A stretch of 30,441 nt of DNA. Source: a virus. The DNA lies in the IMG/VR virus record IMGVR_UViG_3300042301_001872, positions 1 to 30,441 of that record; one strand, given 5' to 3'. A program made the position numbers and the translations under genes. Shown in pieces: positions 13,894 to 23,350 of this stretch (the stretch's first letter is position 1; each line of letters opens with the position of its first letter). Under the pieces are notes generated by a model. That model did no database searches and had not been told where the DNA came from. It saw only the letters and a program-made list of their open reading frames with translations.

Positions 13894-13923
13894 CCCCGAC
13901 CCTAGTACGGTCGGGGTTTTTTT
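13894..13923. terminator. bidirectional intrinsic terminator
   Basis: CCCCGACC (13894-13901) and GGTCGGGG (13909-13916) form an 8-bp stem with a 7-nt loop. On the + strand a run of seven T (13917-13923) follows. On the - strand, after CAGGG, a run TTTTTATTT follows. It would end the - strand late operon just after the giant gene and block + strand read-through from int. Confidence 0.85.
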
Positions 13924-16900
13924 ATTCTTCGGATTCCTCTTCCTCTGTGTAATAGGTGGGAGCCGCCTTAAATCCCTTGGCGTACATGTACCCCTGCTTT
14001 GCCAGCTTCTTGCGTTCAGCGTCCAGCGTCTTGAGCTTCAGCTTCTTCTGAGAAGGGGTCATTTTGGGATCGGTGAGTATCGCGTCCCTCTGCTTGTTGA
14101 TCTCGCTGATCTGTCGGCCAATCTTGCCAAGCTGCTTACGGGCAGACATGGGAGCCTTCATCTCCTCGAGATATTCAGCCGCCTCTTCTTCCCGCTGCTC
14201 GGCGAGCAGCTTCTTGTAGGCGCGATTGGTCTGGTCGGCCTCACGCTTGACCTCATAGAACTCGCCAACAAAGCGGCTGGGTGCGGAGTCGGCATCCTTA
14301 AAGAACCTCTCGACCCCACTCGCTGAAGCAAGCAGATCGCCGATGTGGTAGGGGTCGCCGAATAGGCCGTCAGCCTCTTTGGGTATAGCCCCCATTCCGG
14401 CCAGAACCGTATCGATCCCAGCCAGCATACCGGCACCCATGCTGCCAAGGTGGCCGCGAACCAGATGGTCCACGTTCTTTGGGGAAACGCCCAAGGCACC
14501 GCCAACAGCCTTTGCCGTTTCCGTCGTGCGCTCGTCATACCGCATGGCTGCGGGGAGGTTCATGTCCCCCATGTCATTGATCGGCATTCCCCTGAACGTG
14601 TCGTAGTTGAACGCTACCTCAGTCGTAGGCTTGACTGCCTGCGGTATGGGGTTGAGGGCGAACGTATTGAGGAAGGCGAACTGCACTTTCTTGGAAAGCT
14701 GAGCCCCGTCTCTATCCTTGATGTAGTCATACATCGCAACTGGGAACGATCCAAAGATGGTGCCAACTTCAAACGGCCTCGGGAGCACAACGCGAACATC
14801 TCCAATGTAGAGGATGTCGTTGAGCATCTTGTTTTCCGGCGTCTCGTTCTCCCACCGCTCGTCGTCTTGGAACAGCGCATACACTGCAGTAGCAAAGGCA
14901 GAGTACAGAAGGCCTCTGAAGACAACCTTTTTGCGAAGACCCATGATGGTGGCTTCGTTTGTTTGGTTTTCAGCAATCCTATAAAGGCCTTGGATACGTG
15001 CATTGAGGAACGGGATGATCGGCACAAGGCTCCTTACCGCCTCACCAATGTATCCCTGACCTGCGCCTTTGCGCCCAAAGTTTGTCAGGTTCATGGCCTC
15101 ATAGGCTGCGGTCTTTTCGCTGCCAGTCTTTTCGAGGACGCTGTTGTACAGAACTACGCGCTCTGCAAACTCGCTGGCCTCGCCAAGGCGCTCCATCATC
15201 ACGTAAGCGCCCTTGAACCGATCCAGAATATCCCGCGTTATACCGTGACCGCCTTCGCCTCGACGATAGCGACGACGGATCTCGTCAGCATAATTCTTGT
15301 CGCCCATACCATAGTCATAGCCACCCATGCCGGTGTTGACCTTGATCATGCGCGTTGCTTCATCGCCTCTAAGCGCGTCACGCATTCCCTTAAACGTGGC
15401 TATAGGTCCGCTGAGCTTTGTGTCTGTGGTAACAAACGTGCTGATCTTGCCGCGATACATGTTGGCGAGAATGAAGCTGGTCGTCATTGTTATGCCAGCC
15501 CTGAAGACCCCCGCTATGGAAGACATCGCTTTCATCCACACGCCCATCTGCTGCGGACCGAGGGCGGCGATAGCAACCCACACAGCAGGATCTTCGATCT
15601 TGTAGTAGACAGGCTTGCCTTCCACGCGAAGGCGCATAATGCCCTTTCCTTCGGGGGTCGGAACCCTCTTGCCGACGTCGTCGATGCCGAGCTCGTTCAA
15701 GGCATCGACAACATCAGCCGCCTCTTGCAGGGCAAGGTTCTTTCGTGACGCCACCAAGATAGACTGTAGGTTCTTGACGACGTTTTCATAGAGGTTGCCT
15801 ATGTTGTTGTCGCTGCCCTTCAGCTTCAGGTCGAGGCCTGACTTGGGGTTATTTATCGCAGCCTGAACCTTGGGACCAAGCACCTCCAAGTCACCATCGT
15901 CTTGTTCGAAGGCGCGGTAGTACGGGATGTAGTCCATAGACTTCAGCTTTTCACCAAAGTCTGAGGTCATGAGTCCGGTGTCCACCGCATAGTCGAGGAT
16001 GGCGCGGTTGAACTCTTGGTACTCGTCAAAGACTTGTCCGAATACCGCGTCAGCATTCCGCAGTGTCTCAGCGATCTCTGCATCCGTCAGCTCTGGGAAG
16101 CCTACACGCCCCTCCCTTCGTAGCTGCGACTCACGCCGAGATACTGCGTAGGTCTGGAACGCTTCCGAGTTGGCTTCCCCAATAGGCTCGAAGATCTCGA
16201 TCAGGCCCTTGATGTTCTCGTTAATAGTCGTGAGCTCGCCGTCGTAAACGGGAGGGCCGTACTCGAGCGCAGCCTGAATGACGCCGCTGGACTGCGACAC
16301 CATTTCCATCATCCGGCCAACGCTTGAGCCGTCTGTGGGAACTCTGCCGTCTGCAGGGTCAACGCCACGAAGGGCTGCATCCAAGAACTTGTCGAGGATG
16401 AGGGTTCCGTCTTTGTCGTTTACTACGTTGCGTACGAGGGCGCGACGGCGTGACTCATTACCCTGCCTGCCAACTAGGTTGTCGAGAAAAGTCGAGAAGA
16501 ATGACTTCTTGTTCGACCGAGCAACGACCTTGTCCAACATGCTTTCTGAAACGCCGCCAGTGTTCCGCGCACGACGGCCAGAGAAGCGCACGCCTTCGCC
16601 GTCCATCATCTCGCGGATGCGGTCGGCATTCTCGTTGCTGATCGGCACAGCTTCGTCGATGACCGTCTCGGTGTCGCCGTTGCTGAAGGGATCGCTACGG
16701 CCAGCACGCTGCGGAGCGAGTTGAACGCCAGTGAGATCCTCGATCTGAGCCGCCCCGTTCTGGCGGATAAGAATGACGGGGATCTGGTCGATGCCAGCCG
16801 CCTTAAATGCAGTCATGCGGTGACGGCCTTCATGGCCCATTACGCGGCGAGGCTGTTCCTTGCCGGATGCCATGTAAGGATCCGCTATCTCGAGGAACAG

Positions 16901-19900
16901 CGGCTGGCTCACCTGACGCAGCTCGTCGACGTTGAGCTCGCGAGCGCGGGTCTTCGTGGGATCCATCGTGGCCAGACGATCACGACCATCCTTCGACAGA
17001 GTCAGGCCGAGGAACTGGTCGGGCGACATGAACGTCATCCAGCCCTTGGACTTCTTGTCGTCGAATGGGTAGGTGTAGTCTTTCAGGATCTGTTCGGTGC
17101 GCTCTGGGGTGTAAACGGCCCTGCTTGAGGGTGTCTGCTCCCCATCTACAACTCGCTCGGTCCATGTCCACTCAGGCATCAACCCAATTTTTTGGGGCGC
17201 AAATACAGTTTCGAACAAGCCTGCTGTGCGGTTAGCCTCGCCGTATGGGCCAAAGTTAAGCCAACTGTTTTGGCCGCGAGTTTCGCTAGTAAGTGCTGCT
17301 AGGGCGGGACCGGTGAACAGGCGAGCGTGCGCCTGCCACGCATTCTCCTCACCACGCGAACGGAACCCAGCGCCCTCCAGACCGTGACCAAAGGCGTCGT
17401 GGACTGCGCGGAACAGGTCGTTTGCCAGAACGGGCCGCATGACACCGCTCTGGTCGCGCCACTTGAGTCCGGTGTCAGCGAGCAGTGGATTGGTGGAGGC
17501 GCGGAGGGCGGAGCCATCACTGCCGTACCCTTCCACGGTCGAGTACACAGCCATGCGCTTATTGTTGCGCAAGTCTCGCATAGCCTCCCACGGGTTGGTG
17601 CCGTAGGGGTCGAAGTCGTTGCCGAAGAAAGTGAACTCGTACCCAGCCTCGACTAGGGCATCGTACTGCTTGCGCGTTTGGCGGATGAGGTCTTCATACG
17701 CCTCGATCACAGCGGGGTCGTTAGGGGCGTCTTCCATCTCCTCGTAGGCTTGAGCCACCCTGCGAGAGAACGCCTCGTCGATTGCTACATACTCGGACTG
17801 CCGAGTAAGCGGTATACCGTTTTCTAGGGCGTAGTCTTCCGCGACCTTGACGAGGTCGGCGTTTGGACCTCCGCCGCGAACCTTTGGCGCACCCTCAAGC
17901 GGCGCAATTTCTCCGCCTCGATTGCCTGCTCCTCCGTCTCGTCGTCCGGTTCGACCGGAGTAACGGGTGCCGCGCTCGATGAGGCGGTTTCTGACGTCGG
18001 CTGGAAGGGTTCGGCGAACTTGATCCCCTTCTTCTTCAACTGCTCCCGCAGCCAAAGCTTGGTCTCCGGCGACAGCGGCTTGTCCGGCACCGCGCCCACC
18101 ATCTCCCTGTCGTGGAGCGCCGTCGCTTCTTCTGTTTCCTGCATCGGTGTTGGCTGACGTGGCATTGGTATTCCTTACTGCTGCTAGTTCGGCGAAGGCA
18201 GTGTCATAGGACACATTGAGGTTGGCCTCAAGCTTTCCTTCTTTGAACAGGTTTACTAGATCTTTCTCTGGATACCAGACAAGCGCCTGCAAATCGGCGG
18301 GGGTGACATTATACCCCTTTTGCGCAAGCATTTTAACTGAGCCTGCGACAACGTCCCTGATCCACTTTCTCTGAGCGCCGTTGGTGGGTGCGTCGTTCGG
18401 CTTGAGTTGGCCTGCAAGCGCAACCGCCTTGAAGGCCCAATCAGGCTTGAGACCTTTTTCCGTAATCTCGTCAGAGCTCATGCCCTGCTTTTGCAGTGCC
18501 TTATACTGGCGTTCCCATTCTGCCGCCAACTGGATACCAAGCCCAACAACCTCTGCGTCGGTAGCTTCGTTGAAGCGCTCAGCGTACCCGTCTGGAACCT
18601 TTGTTGACGGATGGGCGTCTGCCTCGACTGCCTCACGCAGGCTTGTAATCTGCTTGTCAATTGCAGTGTCATTGCCAACAAGGGTGCCGGTCAGGCGACC
18701 CCATAGGCGCATGAACCACAGGTCAATAGTGACCGGCGAGAAGTTGCGGTTTAGGTTCTGATAGAAACCATTGCCGATCTTGGGTCCAAAGATAGCGGAG
18801 CCGTAGACCATCTCGCTTGCGAGCTCGCCACTAATTTTGAATGGCGGCTTATCAAGGCCGTCCTTAGCCTGCACCTTGCGACCAAGTGCATTGAGCTCAG
18901 CTACAGTAAACTCAGTGTTGAGGAACTGACCAAGCTCTCCGACCTTGCCATCAAAAACCTTCTCAAGCATGTAGTTTGCAAGAGCAAGGTTGTTTGTGAT
19001 TGACGGGGCTTTGGTGCCGTACTTCTTTGACGGATCGAACCTGCCGGTCTCAATGAAGGTGTCGAACTGCTCTGTCGTTGCCCTAGCGTTGTCGCGAACC
19101 TTCATGTTTTGCGAGGTGATGGAAAGCGCCAGAGTGAACATCACTCGAGCATCTTCCTTGCTATTGATACCGCGACTGTTGCTTAGGCGCTTCGCAATAT
19201 CATCGTCCCGAAGCATCGGGTAAATTCTAGACGCTTCCTTGATCGCGTCTTCAATAGCCTTGGTGTACCAGTCCAACGCAGAGCGTTTGCCGGTAGCCAT
19301 CTCTTTCAAGATCGCTGCCTCAGCCTCTGCAGCAATTGAGTCCTTCAGATACTTGTCGGTCTTTGGGCTTGGACCAGTGATTCGATCAACGCCAAAGCGA
19401 TTCATAAGCGCTTTTCGCGTCCGGTTCTGAATGAACTGAACGGTGTCCTTAAGCCCCATCCTTTCGTCTGGAACCTGCAGAGCCTTCGTGTTTCCGTTGT
19501 CATACAGAAACGGAATGGTTGACGTCGCATCAATCGGCGGATTGATCTTTTGTTTGCCGATTGATGGGTGCTCATACGTAGGCTTCTGACGGCCAGAGTA
19601 TCTTTCGAAACCCTCTGCGCCGACAAGTGCCTTTGCGAGCTTGGTGGGTGCGGTGACATCATTCAGATACTCTTGCGTTTCCCCGCTACGGTAGCCTTCA
19701 AAGTAGTCCGCCAATGACATTACGTTATCGTTGCGGAGAAGGTTTCCAAACTCGCGACGGAAGCGCTCGATCATGTCGACAATGCGAGCAATGGTAGCCT
19801 TCAGACCGCGCATCGGAGAGCCGGTCTCCTTGGCGTTGACCAAAGCACCAAACGCAACGGCCTGTGCTTCATAGAAAGCAAGTGGCTTATCGCCGAAGTT

Positions 19901-22900
19901 TGCAACTAGGTCATCATAAAAGCTGACGCCATTGCCCATGTCTGTCGCCTTCAACACGCGCAAGATGCTTGCGTCGAATTGGTCGACGGTCATCCCATCT
20001 TCGAACACGTTATTGAGCATATCGAATGCTTGCGGGTCGTAGACCTCTAGCATGTCTTGGATAACGTGGAACGCCTCATGTGCAGCGCTTTCGCGAGTGT
20101 AAGCTCCCAGATCCTCGCTTAGCGACAGCGTGATAAGGCCACTCATTCCGTTCTGGCTTACATCGTAGATCTCATAGCTGCCTGTATTCTCAGCGCCAAG
20201 TTCAATACCGCTTGCAGCCGCAGCCTTGGCATTCGTAGCTTTGAGTGATGGGACAAAAAGAATATCGACGCTGGCATTCTTCGGCAGCACACGCGACATG
20301 ACATCGCCTGCAGCGAAAGCGTAGTAAAACTGCTTTGGGGTGTAGCCGCCCTGCTTCATAATTGAGCGCAGGCGATTGGCAATAATCCGACCCTGACGCC
20401 CACGAGAAGCGATCTTGTTCAGTCGGTCTTCAATGACCGCTTCGTGATCAATCTTCTTCTCCTTACCCTTAGCCGCTTGGTCCTTACGCGGAGTTGGGTT
20501 GCGCGCTACGATGTCGCTGGCCTTGGTTACCCCGCGACCAACATCGTCAATGTTATTGTTTGTGTTTTCAGGACGAATGGGCCGCTCTTCAGCGGTCGGC
20601 TCAGCCTGCGTTTCAGCTTGTGGCTCAGCTTTGGTGTCGACCTGTTCTGTGGTTGCAGACGCGCCAGTAGCGTATGTGCGCTTCTTACGCTTGGATGTTC
20701 GTCCAGAGTAGCGGGTATTGTCGCCGTCAATCTCACTGTAAATTTCTGACTCTAGATCAGCGGCTGCGTTGTCACGCTGTGACTCGATGGCATCCTCAAT
20801 AGCCGCCATCGCGGTGTCGTGTTTGAAGTCACGGTCGGTCTCGTCCTTGATGGCCTCGTCGATGTCGACGTAAGCGTCTTCATCAATCACGCCTTCTTTG
20901 ATCAGCGTCTTGGCAAGCTTGCGTGCTTCACGAGTATTCTCTGTTTCCTGCACGCGCTCAAGGGCAGCATCAAACCGCTCGTTAAGCTCGATCATGCGCG
21001 GATCGTTGTCGATGTCGACTTCTTCCTCAGCGTCCTGCTGCTGGGCCTCTTCGACCTTCGGCGGTGTGCGCCGTATGGGCGCAGGAAGCTGGCGCTGCGC
21101 GGGAGGTGCGGTGACTTCGGGTGTGCTTGCAGCCTCAACAGGCTCCGGTGCTGGCAAGGCTTCTGCTTGACGGAGCGGTGCCTGCTGTTCTGGAGGAGCT
21201 GGGGCGTCTTCTTGAAACGGAACGACGGAGCGTGACTGGGTACGGTCGACAGACCGGCGCGGGTTCATGCTCGTTCCGACGCCAGCCTTTGGCTTGCGCA
21301 GATCACCAGCCAGATCCTGTGACAGACGAGGCGTTTCTCTTACGAGGCGAGCAAACAAGGTAGACGGATCTACTTGCTCAGATACAGTTTGAACGGATCC
21401 ATCTTGAGCCTGCTGCTCGTACTGAATACTAACTTTGCCGCCTTCAGCGCCGACAATGGTTGCAGCAATTCCGCCAAGATCTTCGCCGTAGTATTCAGGG
21501 TTAAGAAAGAACTGGGGGGTCGGATCAGGAGCGCCTGCGCGAAGATCTTCACGCTGGGTTCCTGCGCCAGTGGCAGTGTCAAACCGCGTTTGACGCACGT
21601 CTGCCATACGGAAAGACTGATCAGTCTCTCGGAGCCTCTGAGCTTCATCTGAGGCTTGGCTCGGATTCATGATAACGCTGCCGTCAGCCACGACCTCACG
21701 ATTGCCGTCTGCCGTTTCTTGCGTCTTCATGTACGGGCGTGCAAAGAAGGTCTCGCCCTGCTGAGCAGGCGGCGTGTAGTTGCTGACGATGTTGCGCAGG
21801 CCGTTGACGAACTGCTTGCCCGTACCGCCCGTCTCCACCGCTTTTGCAATTGAAGAAAGCGCTGGGCTCTCAGCCACAATGGCCGGATCAATCTTGCTCA
21901 GCTCTTCGGTGATCATCTGCCGCGAACGACTGACCGGCGTGTTGCCGCCAATCATTCCGGAGATCCGGCGCACAGCCTCGGGCTCAACGCGAGCAGCTTC
22001 CTCTTGGTTGAGGATACGTGCGACCTGCTGAACTTTCGTCGCGTCGCTTACCGGCTGCGACATGATGTCGGCAATGCGCGGATTGCTCTGGTTGTTGGTG
22101 GCAAACTCGAGGATCTGCGTCGGGGTGTAACTCATCCCGCCAGCGGAAATATTATCCATGCCGCTCAGATCAGGCGCGCTCGGCCCTTCAAGGCGAAGAG
22201 TAGTCTGACCGGCTGTTTGATCTCGCGCCGTAAGGGCGTCAAGGAGCTCGTTGTCCTCTGTACCGCGCTGGGAAGGATCTATTTCACTGTTGGGGTCTTC
22301 CTTGATGAAGCGCCTAGCAACTTCAGTACCGCCACGAAGCACACCGCCAGCAAATCCGCCAAGAGCAAAGTCCTGCAGTGCTGACTGGCCAACCTCTACG
22401 TTCGGGTTGTATACGCCAAGCTCAATGAGGTCTTGAGCAACACCCGCCGCAGCCTCCTGAACGCCTTCTTCAATTGCGCTACCAGCAATTTTGCCAACAG
22501 CACGCTTGCCGCCCTGAGCCATTGCCCTACCAACTGCTGTGGTGGCAAATCGCTGACCAACCATCTCGACAACTTTTTGACCGTAGCCATTTGGAACTCG
22601 AGAAAGCAGACCCTTGACTGGAAGAAGTTCGGAAAGACCGACAGCGCCGCCGAATGTTTCGGCAAGTATTTCCTGACCCGAGGAAACCGTAAGTCCTTGT
22701 TCACGCGCCTGCTTGACGCGCTCGTCTTGCTGATCAACGCCACCACCAAAAGACATAGCGCCGACAGCAGCGCGTACAGGAACAGATGCTATGCCGCCTG
22801 CAAGATAAGGAACTGTTGAACCAAGTGCTTCACCGCCCATTCCGCCATAGCGCAGCATCGCGTTTTGTGTGGCCGCTTCTGGAGCGGCGTACTTTTTATT

Positions 22901-23350
22901 AAAGTCGTCGCGATATTCGCGCACCGATTCGGCAGAGTCATCAAAGCCAAGATAGTCAGCAACACCAGCGACACCGCCCAGCACAGTGCTTACCGCCCCC
23001 CGAGTGGGAGCGTTAACGATTTCGCGGCCAACGTCACCAGCGGTCGTCTTTATCTCCCGCCCTGAGTTGATCTTCGCAAGGATGTCCTCGCGCCTCATCT
23101 CCATAAATTTCAGCGCTTCTGCAGCGGCATTCGCCCCACGACCAGTGAACTCGCCAGCGCGCAGCCGCTTCGAGAGAGCCTGTATCTCAGCTTCGCTCTT
23201 CCTTAGCTCCGCCTGCCACTGCGGGTTGCTCGTCCTTTGTGACCTGTTTTGCTGAGAGGCTGAAGCTGTTCCCGCTTGAGACGAGGACGACGTACCCAAG
23301 TCTTCCCAGCGAGTGGGCGCAAACCGCAGTCTATTATTATTTTCAGACAT
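13922..23350 (-). CDS. giant polyvalent (ejected virion) protein, 3142 residues
   Basis: The order of parts resembles large phage polyvalent proteins that are packaged and delivered with the DNA. A Ser/Gln-rich start is followed by a Gly/Ala-rich hydrophobic region (about 100-340). A zinc-metallopeptidase-like site H1091-E-A-F-H1095 has a possible third ligand in FYEAQAVAFG. An uncharacterised domain contains H1984-D-A-F-G-H1989. A ParB/sulfiredoxin-like segment has GHEGRHR (2172-2178). A C-terminal part resembles large polyvalent protein-associated domain 38 (about 2600-2880, ASEFAERVVLYNSVLEKTG and NLTNFGRKG). Acidic and Pro-rich linkers lie between. R-[YF]-S-G-R motifs occur at 880, 1250, 1796 and 2255. 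The ATG follows AGAAGG by 6 nt. It ends at the terminator. Likely roles are genome ejection or early host takeover; each activity is inferred from motifs. Confidence 0.85.
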   Translation of the reverse strand: MSENNNRLRFAPTRWEDLGTSSSSQAGTASASQQNRSQRTSNPQWQAELRKSEAEIQALSKRLRAGEFTGRGANAAAEALKFMEMRREDILAKINSGREIKTTAGDVGREIVNAPTRGAVSTVLGGVAGVADYLGFDDSAESVREYRDDFNKKYAAPEAATQNAMLRYGGMGGEALGSTVPYLAGGIASVPVRAAVGAMSFGGGVDQQDERVKQAREQGLTVSSGQEILAETFGGAVGLSELLPVKGLLSRVPNGYGQKVVEMVGQRFATTAVGRAMAQGGKRAVGKIAGSAIEEGVQEAAAGVAQDLIELGVYNPNVEVGQSALQDFALGGFAGGVLRGGTEVARRFIKEDPNSEIDPSQRGTEDNELLDALTARDQTAGQTTLRLEGPSAPDLSGMDNISAGGMSYTPTQILEFATNNQSNPRIADIMSQPVSDATKVQQVARILNQEEAARVEPEAVRRISGMIGGNTPVSRSRQMITEELSKIDPAIVAESPALSSIAKAVETGGTGKQFVNGLRNIVSNYTPPAQQGETFFARPYMKTQETADGNREVVADGSVIMNPSQASDEAQRLRETDQSFRMADVRQTRFDTATGAGTQREDLRAGAPDPTPQFFLNPEYYGEDLGGIAATIVGAEGGKVSIQYEQQAQDGSVQTVSEQVDPSTLFARLVRETPRLSQDLAGDLRKPKAGVGTSMNPRRSVDRTQSRSVVPFQEDAPAPPEQQAPLRQAEALPAPEPVEAASTPEVTAPPAQRQLPAPIRRTPPKVEEAQQQDAEEEVDIDNDPRMIELNERFDAALERVQETENTREARKLAKTLIKEGVIDEDAYVDIDEAIKDETDRDFKHDTAMAAIEDAIESQRDNAAADLESEIYSEIDGDNTRYSGRTSKRKKRTYATGASATTEQVDTKAEPQAETQAEPTAEERPIRPENTNNNIDDVGRGVTKASDIVARNPTPRKDQAAKGKEKKIDHEAVIEDRLNKIASRGRQGRIIANRLRSIMKQGGYTPKQFYYAFAAGDVMSRVLPKNASVDILFVPSLKATNAKAAAASGIELGAENTGSYEIYDVSQNGMSGLITLSLSEDLGAYTRESAAHEAFHVIQDMLEVYDPQAFDMLNNVFEDGMTVDQFDASILRVLKATDMGNGVSFYDDLVANFGDKPLAFYEAQAVAFGALVNAKETGSPMRGLKATIARIVDMIERFRREFGNLLRNDNVMSLADYFEGYRSGETQEYLNDVTAPTKLAKALVGAEGFERYSGRQKPTYEHPSIGKQKINPPIDATSTIPFLYDNGNTKALQVPDERMGLKDTVQFIQNRTRKALMNRFGVDRITGPSPKTDKYLKDSIAAEAEAAILKEMATGKRSALDWYTKAIEDAIKEASRIYPMLRDDDIAKRLSNSRGINSKEDARVMFTLALSITSQNMKVRDNARATTEQFDTFIETGRFDPSKKYGTKAPSITNNLALANYMLEKVFDGKVGELGQFLNTEFTVAELNALGRKVQAKDGLDKPPFKISGELASEMVYGSAIFGPKIGNGFYQNLNRNFSPVTIDLWFMRLWGRLTGTLVGNDTAIDKQITSLREAVEADAHPSTKVPDGYAERFNEATDAEVVGLGIQLAAEWERQYKALQKQGMSSDEITEKGLKPDWAFKAVALAGQLKPNDAPTNGAQRKWIRDVVAGSVKMLAQKGYNVTPADLQALVWYPEKDLVNLFKEGKLEANLNVSYDTAFAELAAVRNTNATSANTDAGNRRSDGAPRQGDGGRGAGQAAVAGDQALAAGAVEEEGDQVRRTLPADVRNRLIERGTRYSGRTGRRDGGAGNRGGEIAPLEGAPKVRGGGPNADLVKVAEDYALENGIPLTRQSEYVAIDEAFSRRVAQAYEEMEDAPNDPAVIEAYEDLIRQTRKQYDALVEAGYEFTFFGNDFDPYGTNPWEAMRDLRNNKRMAVYSTVEGYGSDGSALRASTNPLLADTGLKWRDQSGVMRPVLANDLFRAVHDAFGHGLEGAGFRSRGEENAWQAHARLFTGPALAALTSETRGQNSWLNFGPYGEANRTAGLFETVFAPQKIGLMPEWTWTERVVDGEQTPSSRAVYTPERTEQILKDYTYPFDDKKSKGWMTFMSPDQFLGLTLSKDGRDRLATMDPTKTRARELNVDELRQVSQPLFLEIADPYMASGKEQPRRVMGHEGRHRMTAFKAAGIDQIPVILIRQNGAAQIEDLTGVQLAPQRAGRSDPFSNGDTETVIDEAVPISNENADRIREMMDGEGVRFSGRRARNTGGVSESMLDKVVARSNKKSFFSTFLDNLVGRQGNESRRRALVRNVVNDKDGTLILDKFLDAALRGVDPADGRVPTDGSSVGRMMEMVSQSSGVIQAALEYGPPVYDGELTTINENIKGLIEIFEPIGEANSEAFQTYAVSRRESQLRREGRVGFPELTDAEIAETLRNADAVFGQVFDEYQEFNRAILDYAVDTGLMTSDFGEKLKSMDYIPYYRAFEQDDGDLEVLGPKVQAAINNPKSGLDLKLKGSDNNIGNLYENVVKNLQSILVASRKNLALQEAADVVDALNELGIDDVGKRVPTPEGKGIMRLRVEGKPVYYKIEDPAVWVAIAALGPQQMGVWMKAMSSIAGVFRAGITMTTSFILANMYRGKISTFVTTDTKLSGPIATFKGMRDALRGDEATRMIKVNTGMGGYDYGMGDKNYADEIRRRYRRGEGGHGITRDILDRFKGAYVMMERLGEASEFAERVVLYNSVLEKTGSEKTAAYEAMNLTNFGRKGAGQGYIGEAVRSLVPIIPFLNARIQGLYRIAENQTNEATIMGLRKKVVFRGLLYSAFATAVYALFQDDERWENETPENKMLNDILYIGDVRVVLPRPFEVGTIFGSFPVAMYDYIKDRDGAQLSKKVQFAFLNTFALNPIPQAVKPTTEVAFNYDTFRGMPINDMGDMNLPAAMRYDERTTETAKAVGGALGVSPKNVDHLVRGHLGSMGAGMLAGIDTVLAGMGAIPKEADGLFGDPYHIGDLLASASGVERFFKDADSAPSRFVGEFYEVKREADQTNRAYKKLLAEQREEEAAEYLEEMKAPMSARKQLGKIGRQISEINKQRDAILTDPKMTPSQKKLKLKTLDAERKKLAKQGYMYAKGFKAAPTYYTEEEESEE
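17824..18165 (-). CDS. possible nested gene in an alternative frame of the giant gene
   Basis: An ATG at 18165 opens a 113-codon frame inside the giant gene, shifted by one base. AAGGA lies 6 nt upstream of this ATG, preceded by a TAA in the same frame, so it has a normal translation start. Codons in this frame (AAG, GAG, CTG, CCG, ATC, TTC) look like those of the clear genes here, while the giant frame in the same stretch uses many GGA, CAA, GAT and GCT codons and encodes a Gly/Arg/Ala-rich linker. The product is soluble and helical (LSPETKLWLREQLKKKGIKF), with an acidic Pro/Thr middle and a basic end. It has no family I recognise. The giant frame must also be translated, as its RYSGR motif at 1796 lies here. 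Confidence 0.4.
   Translation of the reverse strand: MPRQPTPMQETEEATALHDREMVGAVPDKPLSPETKLWLREQLKKKGIKFAEPFQPTSETASSSAAPVTPVEPDDETEEQAIEAEKLRRLRVRQRFAAEVQTPTSSRSRKTTP

Follow-up and report, generated by a model that had tools for sequence, protein, structure and literature searches.

Among the closest described systems are the embedded two-component spanins, in which Rz1 lies within Rz, as in phage lambda (PMC6139136). The nested reading frame examined here, which we call N, resembles that arrangement: like Rz1, it is a small same-strand gene in the +1 frame of a larger phage gene, with its own start, and is of a kind often missed by gene callers. N differs from Rz1 in lying outside any lysis gene pair, and it does not meet the requirement of an o-spanin for a lipobox cysteine; its sequence contains no cysteine at all, and thus no lipobox. 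Nor is its host an i-spanin, but a 9.4-kb gene for a polyvalent protein of 3142 aa. Spanin genes also occur separated, for which the family phrog_2423 provides a parallel here, and unlike the spanins, several unrelated nested families occupy different linkers of giant genes in the present case.

The host gene belongs with the large polyvalent proteins of phages (Iyer et al. 2017, PMC5512222), which it resembles in being a multi-domain giant with an LPD38 domain and shuffled domains. By a term search, neither overlapping genes nor frameshifts are mentioned in that paper, whereas the linkers studied here also encode small genes. Long same-strand phase-1 overlaps in bacteria are biased towards +1, which has been explained by a neutral, compositional model (Sabath et al. 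2008, PMC2542354). Our overlaps share the +1 bias but depart from the model, since purifying selection acts strongly on the nested frames, which are also tied to the borders of domains. In the open-access literature, to which our search was limited, we found no report of small genes nested in the linkers of polyvalent proteins.

The window, an IMG/VR phage contig of 30,441 nucleotides (IMGVR_UViG_3300042301_001872), contains the following features:

13922..23350, minus strand: host gene, encoding the giant polyvalent protein of 3142 aa, with an LPD38 domain near the C-terminus
18167..19003, minus strand: region A of the giant protein, residues 1450-1728, upstream neighbour of N
18172..18176, minus strand: Shine-Dalgarno AAGGA of N, with a 6-nt spacer to the ATG and equivalents in relatives
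17824..18165, minus strand: nested gene N, an ORF of 113 aa, stop included, resting on the ORF itself, synonymous suppression and relatives
17998..18165, minus strand: module 1 of N, residues 1-56, M.RQPTPMQETE..KLWLREQLKKKGIKF.EP, with a predicted helix at 33-46
17951..17965, minus strand: linker motif RYSGR of the giant frame, residues 1796-1800, which separates modules 1 and 2 of N and shows giant-type substitutions
17881..17940, minus strand: conserved core of module 2 of N, residues 76-95, ETEEQAIEAEKLRRLRVRQR, with a predicted helix at 78-99
17156..17914, minus strand: domain B of the giant protein, residues 1813-2065, which follows the N core directly

We interpret N as a genuine protein-coding gene in the +1 frame, fully embedded in an inter-domain linker, with a separate product made from its own start. 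We assign this reading a probability of roughly 0.88; the anatomy, selection, starts and recurrence are observed, and translation and the separate product are inferred. Ribosomes would begin at N's own ATG and Shine-Dalgarno on the giant mRNA and yield a separate 113-aa protein, predicted to consist of two short helices, one in module 1 and one in the ETEE...LRRLRVRQ core, linked by disordered stretches. The AlphaFold2 model of N placed helices at residues 33-46 and 78-99 and left the remaining chain at low confidence (pLDDT 67.6). The same DNA would also be translated in the giant frame, as a Gly/Arg/Ala linker with RYSGR. Such double use would divide the constraint, nested-type on the two modules and giant-type on RYSGR and from domain B onward. 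The product may be a small accessory protein made alongside the giant protein, a role that is inferred, its activity being unknown. Scaffold, antitoxin and chaperone roles were also considered, without direct evidence for any of them.

The original prediction, made from the window alone, had placed a 113-codon frame, shifted by one base, 6 nt past an AAGGA, and we located it exactly there, with its ATG at 18165 and spanning giant codons 1729-1842. N thus has a complete ORF in another frame with its own start and ribosome-binding site, as expected of an embedded gene. Its codons had been described as closer to the usual coding pattern than those of the giant frame, which agrees with codon scores of +0.130 for the nested and +0.015 for the giant frame over this stretch. 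Elsewhere in sampled windows of the giant gene, its own frame scored 0.300 +/- 0.087 and the +1 frame -0.275 +/- 0.123, with a maximum of 0.034; the giant frame is therefore atypically poor across N. The giant peptide is Gly/Arg/Ala-rich here and carries RYSGR at residue 1796, as had also been noted.

Comparative evidence comes from relatives of the giant region, of which we fetched 79 loci, the closest being L002/L081 (loci are cited throughout by L number). Synonymous suppression had been proposed as a check, and it proved positive: relative to L002, only 5 of 69 four-fold giant-frame sites changed inside N, against 176 of 280 in the flanks (Fisher p = 4e-18). Similarly, third positions of giant codons differed from the closest relative at 7 of 113 codons inside N, 239 of 465 upstream and 120 of 222 downstream. 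Giant codons 1724-1783 and 1814-1828 showed no four-fold change relative to this relative, whereas 4 of 8 such sites had changed in codons 1784-1798, a stretch whose end falls within the RYSGR segment. Differences inside N fell 2, 7 and 13 times on its first, second and third codon positions (N1, N2 and N3), the signature of a coding frame. Over the same DNA, the nested protein retained more identity than the giant frame, both to L002 (93% against 88%) and to L004 (79% against 57%). Purifying selection on the second frame goes beyond what the first accounts for, as also expected of an embedded gene. A scan across many genomes put synonymous change at codons 1764-1788 at 0.15 of expectation, and among 5495 pairs of giants, the well-covered minimum of synonymous change fell at the place of N in most giants. 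Overall, substitutions were nested-type across the two helical modules and giant-type across the RYSGR segment and past codon ~1843, which bears out the earlier inference that the giant frame is also in use. Comparison therefore strongly supports a real overlapping gene under selection at 17824-18165, in the absence of expression data.

N recurs widely. The module 2 core, with the family consensus ETEEDGIRAEALRRLKVRR, was found in ~90 phage contigs, in +1 and just ahead of the same giant domain, with the codon periodicity of the nested frame. Distant relatives carry the +1 core DPNRPETEEDGIRAEALRRLKVRR immediately upstream of domain B, the first codons of that domain (LAPLEGAP) overlapping the core's end (LRRLRVRQ). 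An independent scan with the core alone recovered 55 loci, and each was spanned by a long ORF in an unchanged relative frame. Starts were enriched: an ATG with a Shine-Dalgarno of at least 5 nt preceded 31 of 52 unique cases, against 3.4% of +1 controls of similar open length, although some members start without a detectable Shine-Dalgarno. The start and ribosome-binding site, whose absence from relatives would have counted against the original prediction, are retained in those that share the N-terminal module (equivalents lie ahead of the N start in L081, L094, L004 and GenBank MW202722). Stops in the nested frame, which would likewise have told against it, do interrupt N in a few lineages (L012, L018, L063-L066), but from the tree of domain B we read these as losses and not as a refutation. 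N is present in 86 of the 96 rows of this tree, for which bootstrap is not settled; it is missing at several separate places, read as losses, and in the long-branched actinophage rows.

Searches against Pfam, PHROGs and NCBIfam assigned N to no family, and no profile match made it a member of phrog_2423 or DUF6496. No stand-alone N was found in the phages or genomes searched, apart from two contigs of Alphaproteobacteria MAGs whose context was not inspected. Possible distant versions in the same place and frame are seen in L083 (MW202675, 5900-6040, MDKMILKHEPKRENFQTQEEYEEALAFFKHRVKHL, with AAGGAGG) and L085 (5651-5839, MPPAEWRRLPEGG...ATPEDHAEASAAFRSRVNRM). An N-like ORF of cyanophage MinM2 had no detectable relatives and was left unproven. 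The cyanophage records OQ594354, OL906435 and PP438419 name Synechococcus, Planktothrix and Planktothricoides as hosts; each is 65014 bp long with identical match scores, and they are possibly one phage.

Gene callers tend to drop same-strand nested ORFs. As a consequence, annotation largely misses a class of small, conserved phage proteins, as illustrated by MW202722, in which N lies unannotated at 16597-16782 on the complement, with AAGGAGG.

The two modules of N also occur apart. In L003/L004/L019, as in L094, module 1 alone makes up the nested ORF, of 61 aa, so that the ORF of the window is module 1 joined to the core. Region A is common to the window and these relatives, which lack B there; in L003/L004/L019 a different giant domain follows, which, judged from its appearance alone, may be an ADP-ribosyltransferase. 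Presumably, recombination in the linker brought the modules together and kept both frames in register.

N is one of several small genes hidden in +1 in the linkers between giant-protein domains. A scan for ORFs more similar in the nested than in the giant frame yielded 1126 pair hits for +1 against 39 for +2, and this type of scan recovered further nested families in other giant linkers. We make no claim for several small +2 components, which seem to be a side effect of DNA conservation. Across 98 giants, 106 ORFs of at least 40 codons with ATG and Shine-Dalgarno were observed in +1, against 51 expected.

One nested ORF, MPLKQGYSQK..., belongs by profile to phrog_2423 (E = 2.4e-21), a family weakly similar to Pfam DUF6496 that elsewhere is a free-standing gene of ~50-60 aa. 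Nested members occur in L039-L042, L155-L157, L159 and L164; MW202867 carries a free-standing one beside a P22-type coat gene. Of 80 viral loci, 75 carry the gene on its own and 5 have it inside a long ORF, in +1, which makes the giant frame the newcomer there. We dropped the idea that free-standing phrog_2423 genes are already open in the giant's frame, as only 8% are open and 92% contain stops. At least one other small gene housed in a giant was thus plainly captured from a free-standing gene. In Acinetobacter phage Brutus, a phrog_2423 match coincides with the beginning of an annotated prohead protease gene.

We lean, with some reserve, towards a broader view in which the giant genes of polyvalent proteins serve generally to house small genes. 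Their linkers would consist partly of captured small genes read out of frame, which remain functional in +1, and recombination would shuffle linker and nested gene together as cassettes that code twice, without loss of register in either frame. This suggests a source for part of the linker sequence in giant multi-domain proteins. With many related double-coding linkers at hand, and with nested genes that in some cases have free-standing relatives, the direction of overprinting becomes testable.

For N itself, capture is only inferred, since phrog_2423 shows merely that capture occurs, and the choice posed originally, between an overprinted newcomer and an older gene overlaid by the giant frame, is unresolved. 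N may be real but younger, having arisen de novo inside an old giant linker by classical overprinting. We consider this possible though rather unlikely. No stand-alone N was found, and the actinophage relatives of domain B that are free-standing lack it, both as such an origin would have it. Yet in the core it is N that is better conserved and codon-typical and the giant frame that is atypical, module 1 is kept in the absence of B, and the sister gene phrog_2423 was captured.

A programmed frameshift, producing a giant-N fusion or, through a -1 slip from N into domain B, an N-B fusion, appears improbable. Constraint does pass from N to the giant frame within a few codons, as a -1 shift requires. 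However, N has its own Shine-Dalgarno and ATG, and an in-frame stop immediately precedes the ATG in L008, L011 and L067 and lies one codon earlier in L030 and L035, so that N is not an extension of an upstream ORF. N also ends 17 codons beyond the core in many loci, dual coding (R-L / P-L) accounts for the fully conserved CCGCTT run, and no slippery heptamer was seen by eye, without a program scan.

A nucleotide-level element, such as an RNA structure or a packaging or regulatory site, would likewise suppress synonymous change in the giant frame while conserving DNA rather than protein. Although RNA folding was not computed, we regard this as very improbable given the pattern of variation. N1 and N2 hardly varied across 52 unique cores, whereas N3 was free, and the periodicity of the giant frame took over after codon 18. 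These cores were collected by a pattern that fixes a few columns, but N periodicity was also visible in the remaining ones. Their N-frame similarity was 43.3, against 1.8 +/- 0.97 when the giant peptide was fixed and its codons resampled. Moreover, the nested frame remains stop-free, and its start and Shine-Dalgarno are kept despite differing upstream sequence.

An untranslated chance opening of the +1 frame in the G+C-rich linker is scarcely credible, even though an ATG ORF of at least 113 codons arises somewhere in +1 or +2 in 68% of codon-resampled giants (P = 0.68), since synonymous suppression falls exactly over N, with N-type periodicity, Shine-Dalgarno enrichment and conservation in ~90 contigs. 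We accordingly dropped ORF length as support for N as a gene; its length is unremarkable, and the evidence beyond chance is conservation.

The host is a single multi-domain protein that has the domain make-up of a large polyvalent protein, with an LPD-type domain (LPD38, E = 4e-32) and many domains per chain, as seen from phrog_18222/9854/3170 and from a model of domain B. Gene order alone suggests that it is packaged and delivered with the virion. Domain B had no match in the PDB; against viral structure models it matched only phage relatives, several of them polyvalent. R[YF]SGR occurs at four giant positions (residues 880, 1250, 1796 and 2255), apparently in linkers, and the looser motif [RK][YF]S[GRS] occurs 41 times in giants against 21.6 in shuffled ones; R[YF]SGR is possibly a processing or linker motif. 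In L038 (L111), a single giant carries two tandem copies of domain B, and ahead of each lies a separate nested N core.

Further nested families were seen in other linkers. The second, MPFKSK (MPFKSKQQVKYLYSQEP...EKWRKENPKQDLKKLPKKV), was nested in the +1 frame of a giant ORF at every one of the 80 best viral loci (members in L018, L029, L031-L034, L045 and L237-L316). Because these loci are the nearest matches of queries that were themselves nested, more distant free-standing forms may have escaped detection. Over 52 of its loci, amino-acid entropy was 0.68 in the nested and 1.38 in the giant frame. Its starts mostly lack a Shine-Dalgarno and have A-rich sequence upstream. In L030, two nested ORFs follow one another, and the end of the first (AAGGAGG) doubles as the Shine-Dalgarno of the second. 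Smaller sets of +1 nested ORFs share the motifs NPLLDLMKAEQIPLTRQNYLEIAY (L017:5834-6046, L067, L113, L136), LTPEEAERLWGIPRSGELVITP (L025, L038, L054, L111), GRKVSAEEVKEMDAILSG (L010, L031, L045), MPSQ.ELL...LE.K.G.DNPFV.GL (L060, L100, L115) and MPTNSTPSDLMSDLLQATLVKQPELAQKQLRLL (L030, L068), the last four in other linkers.
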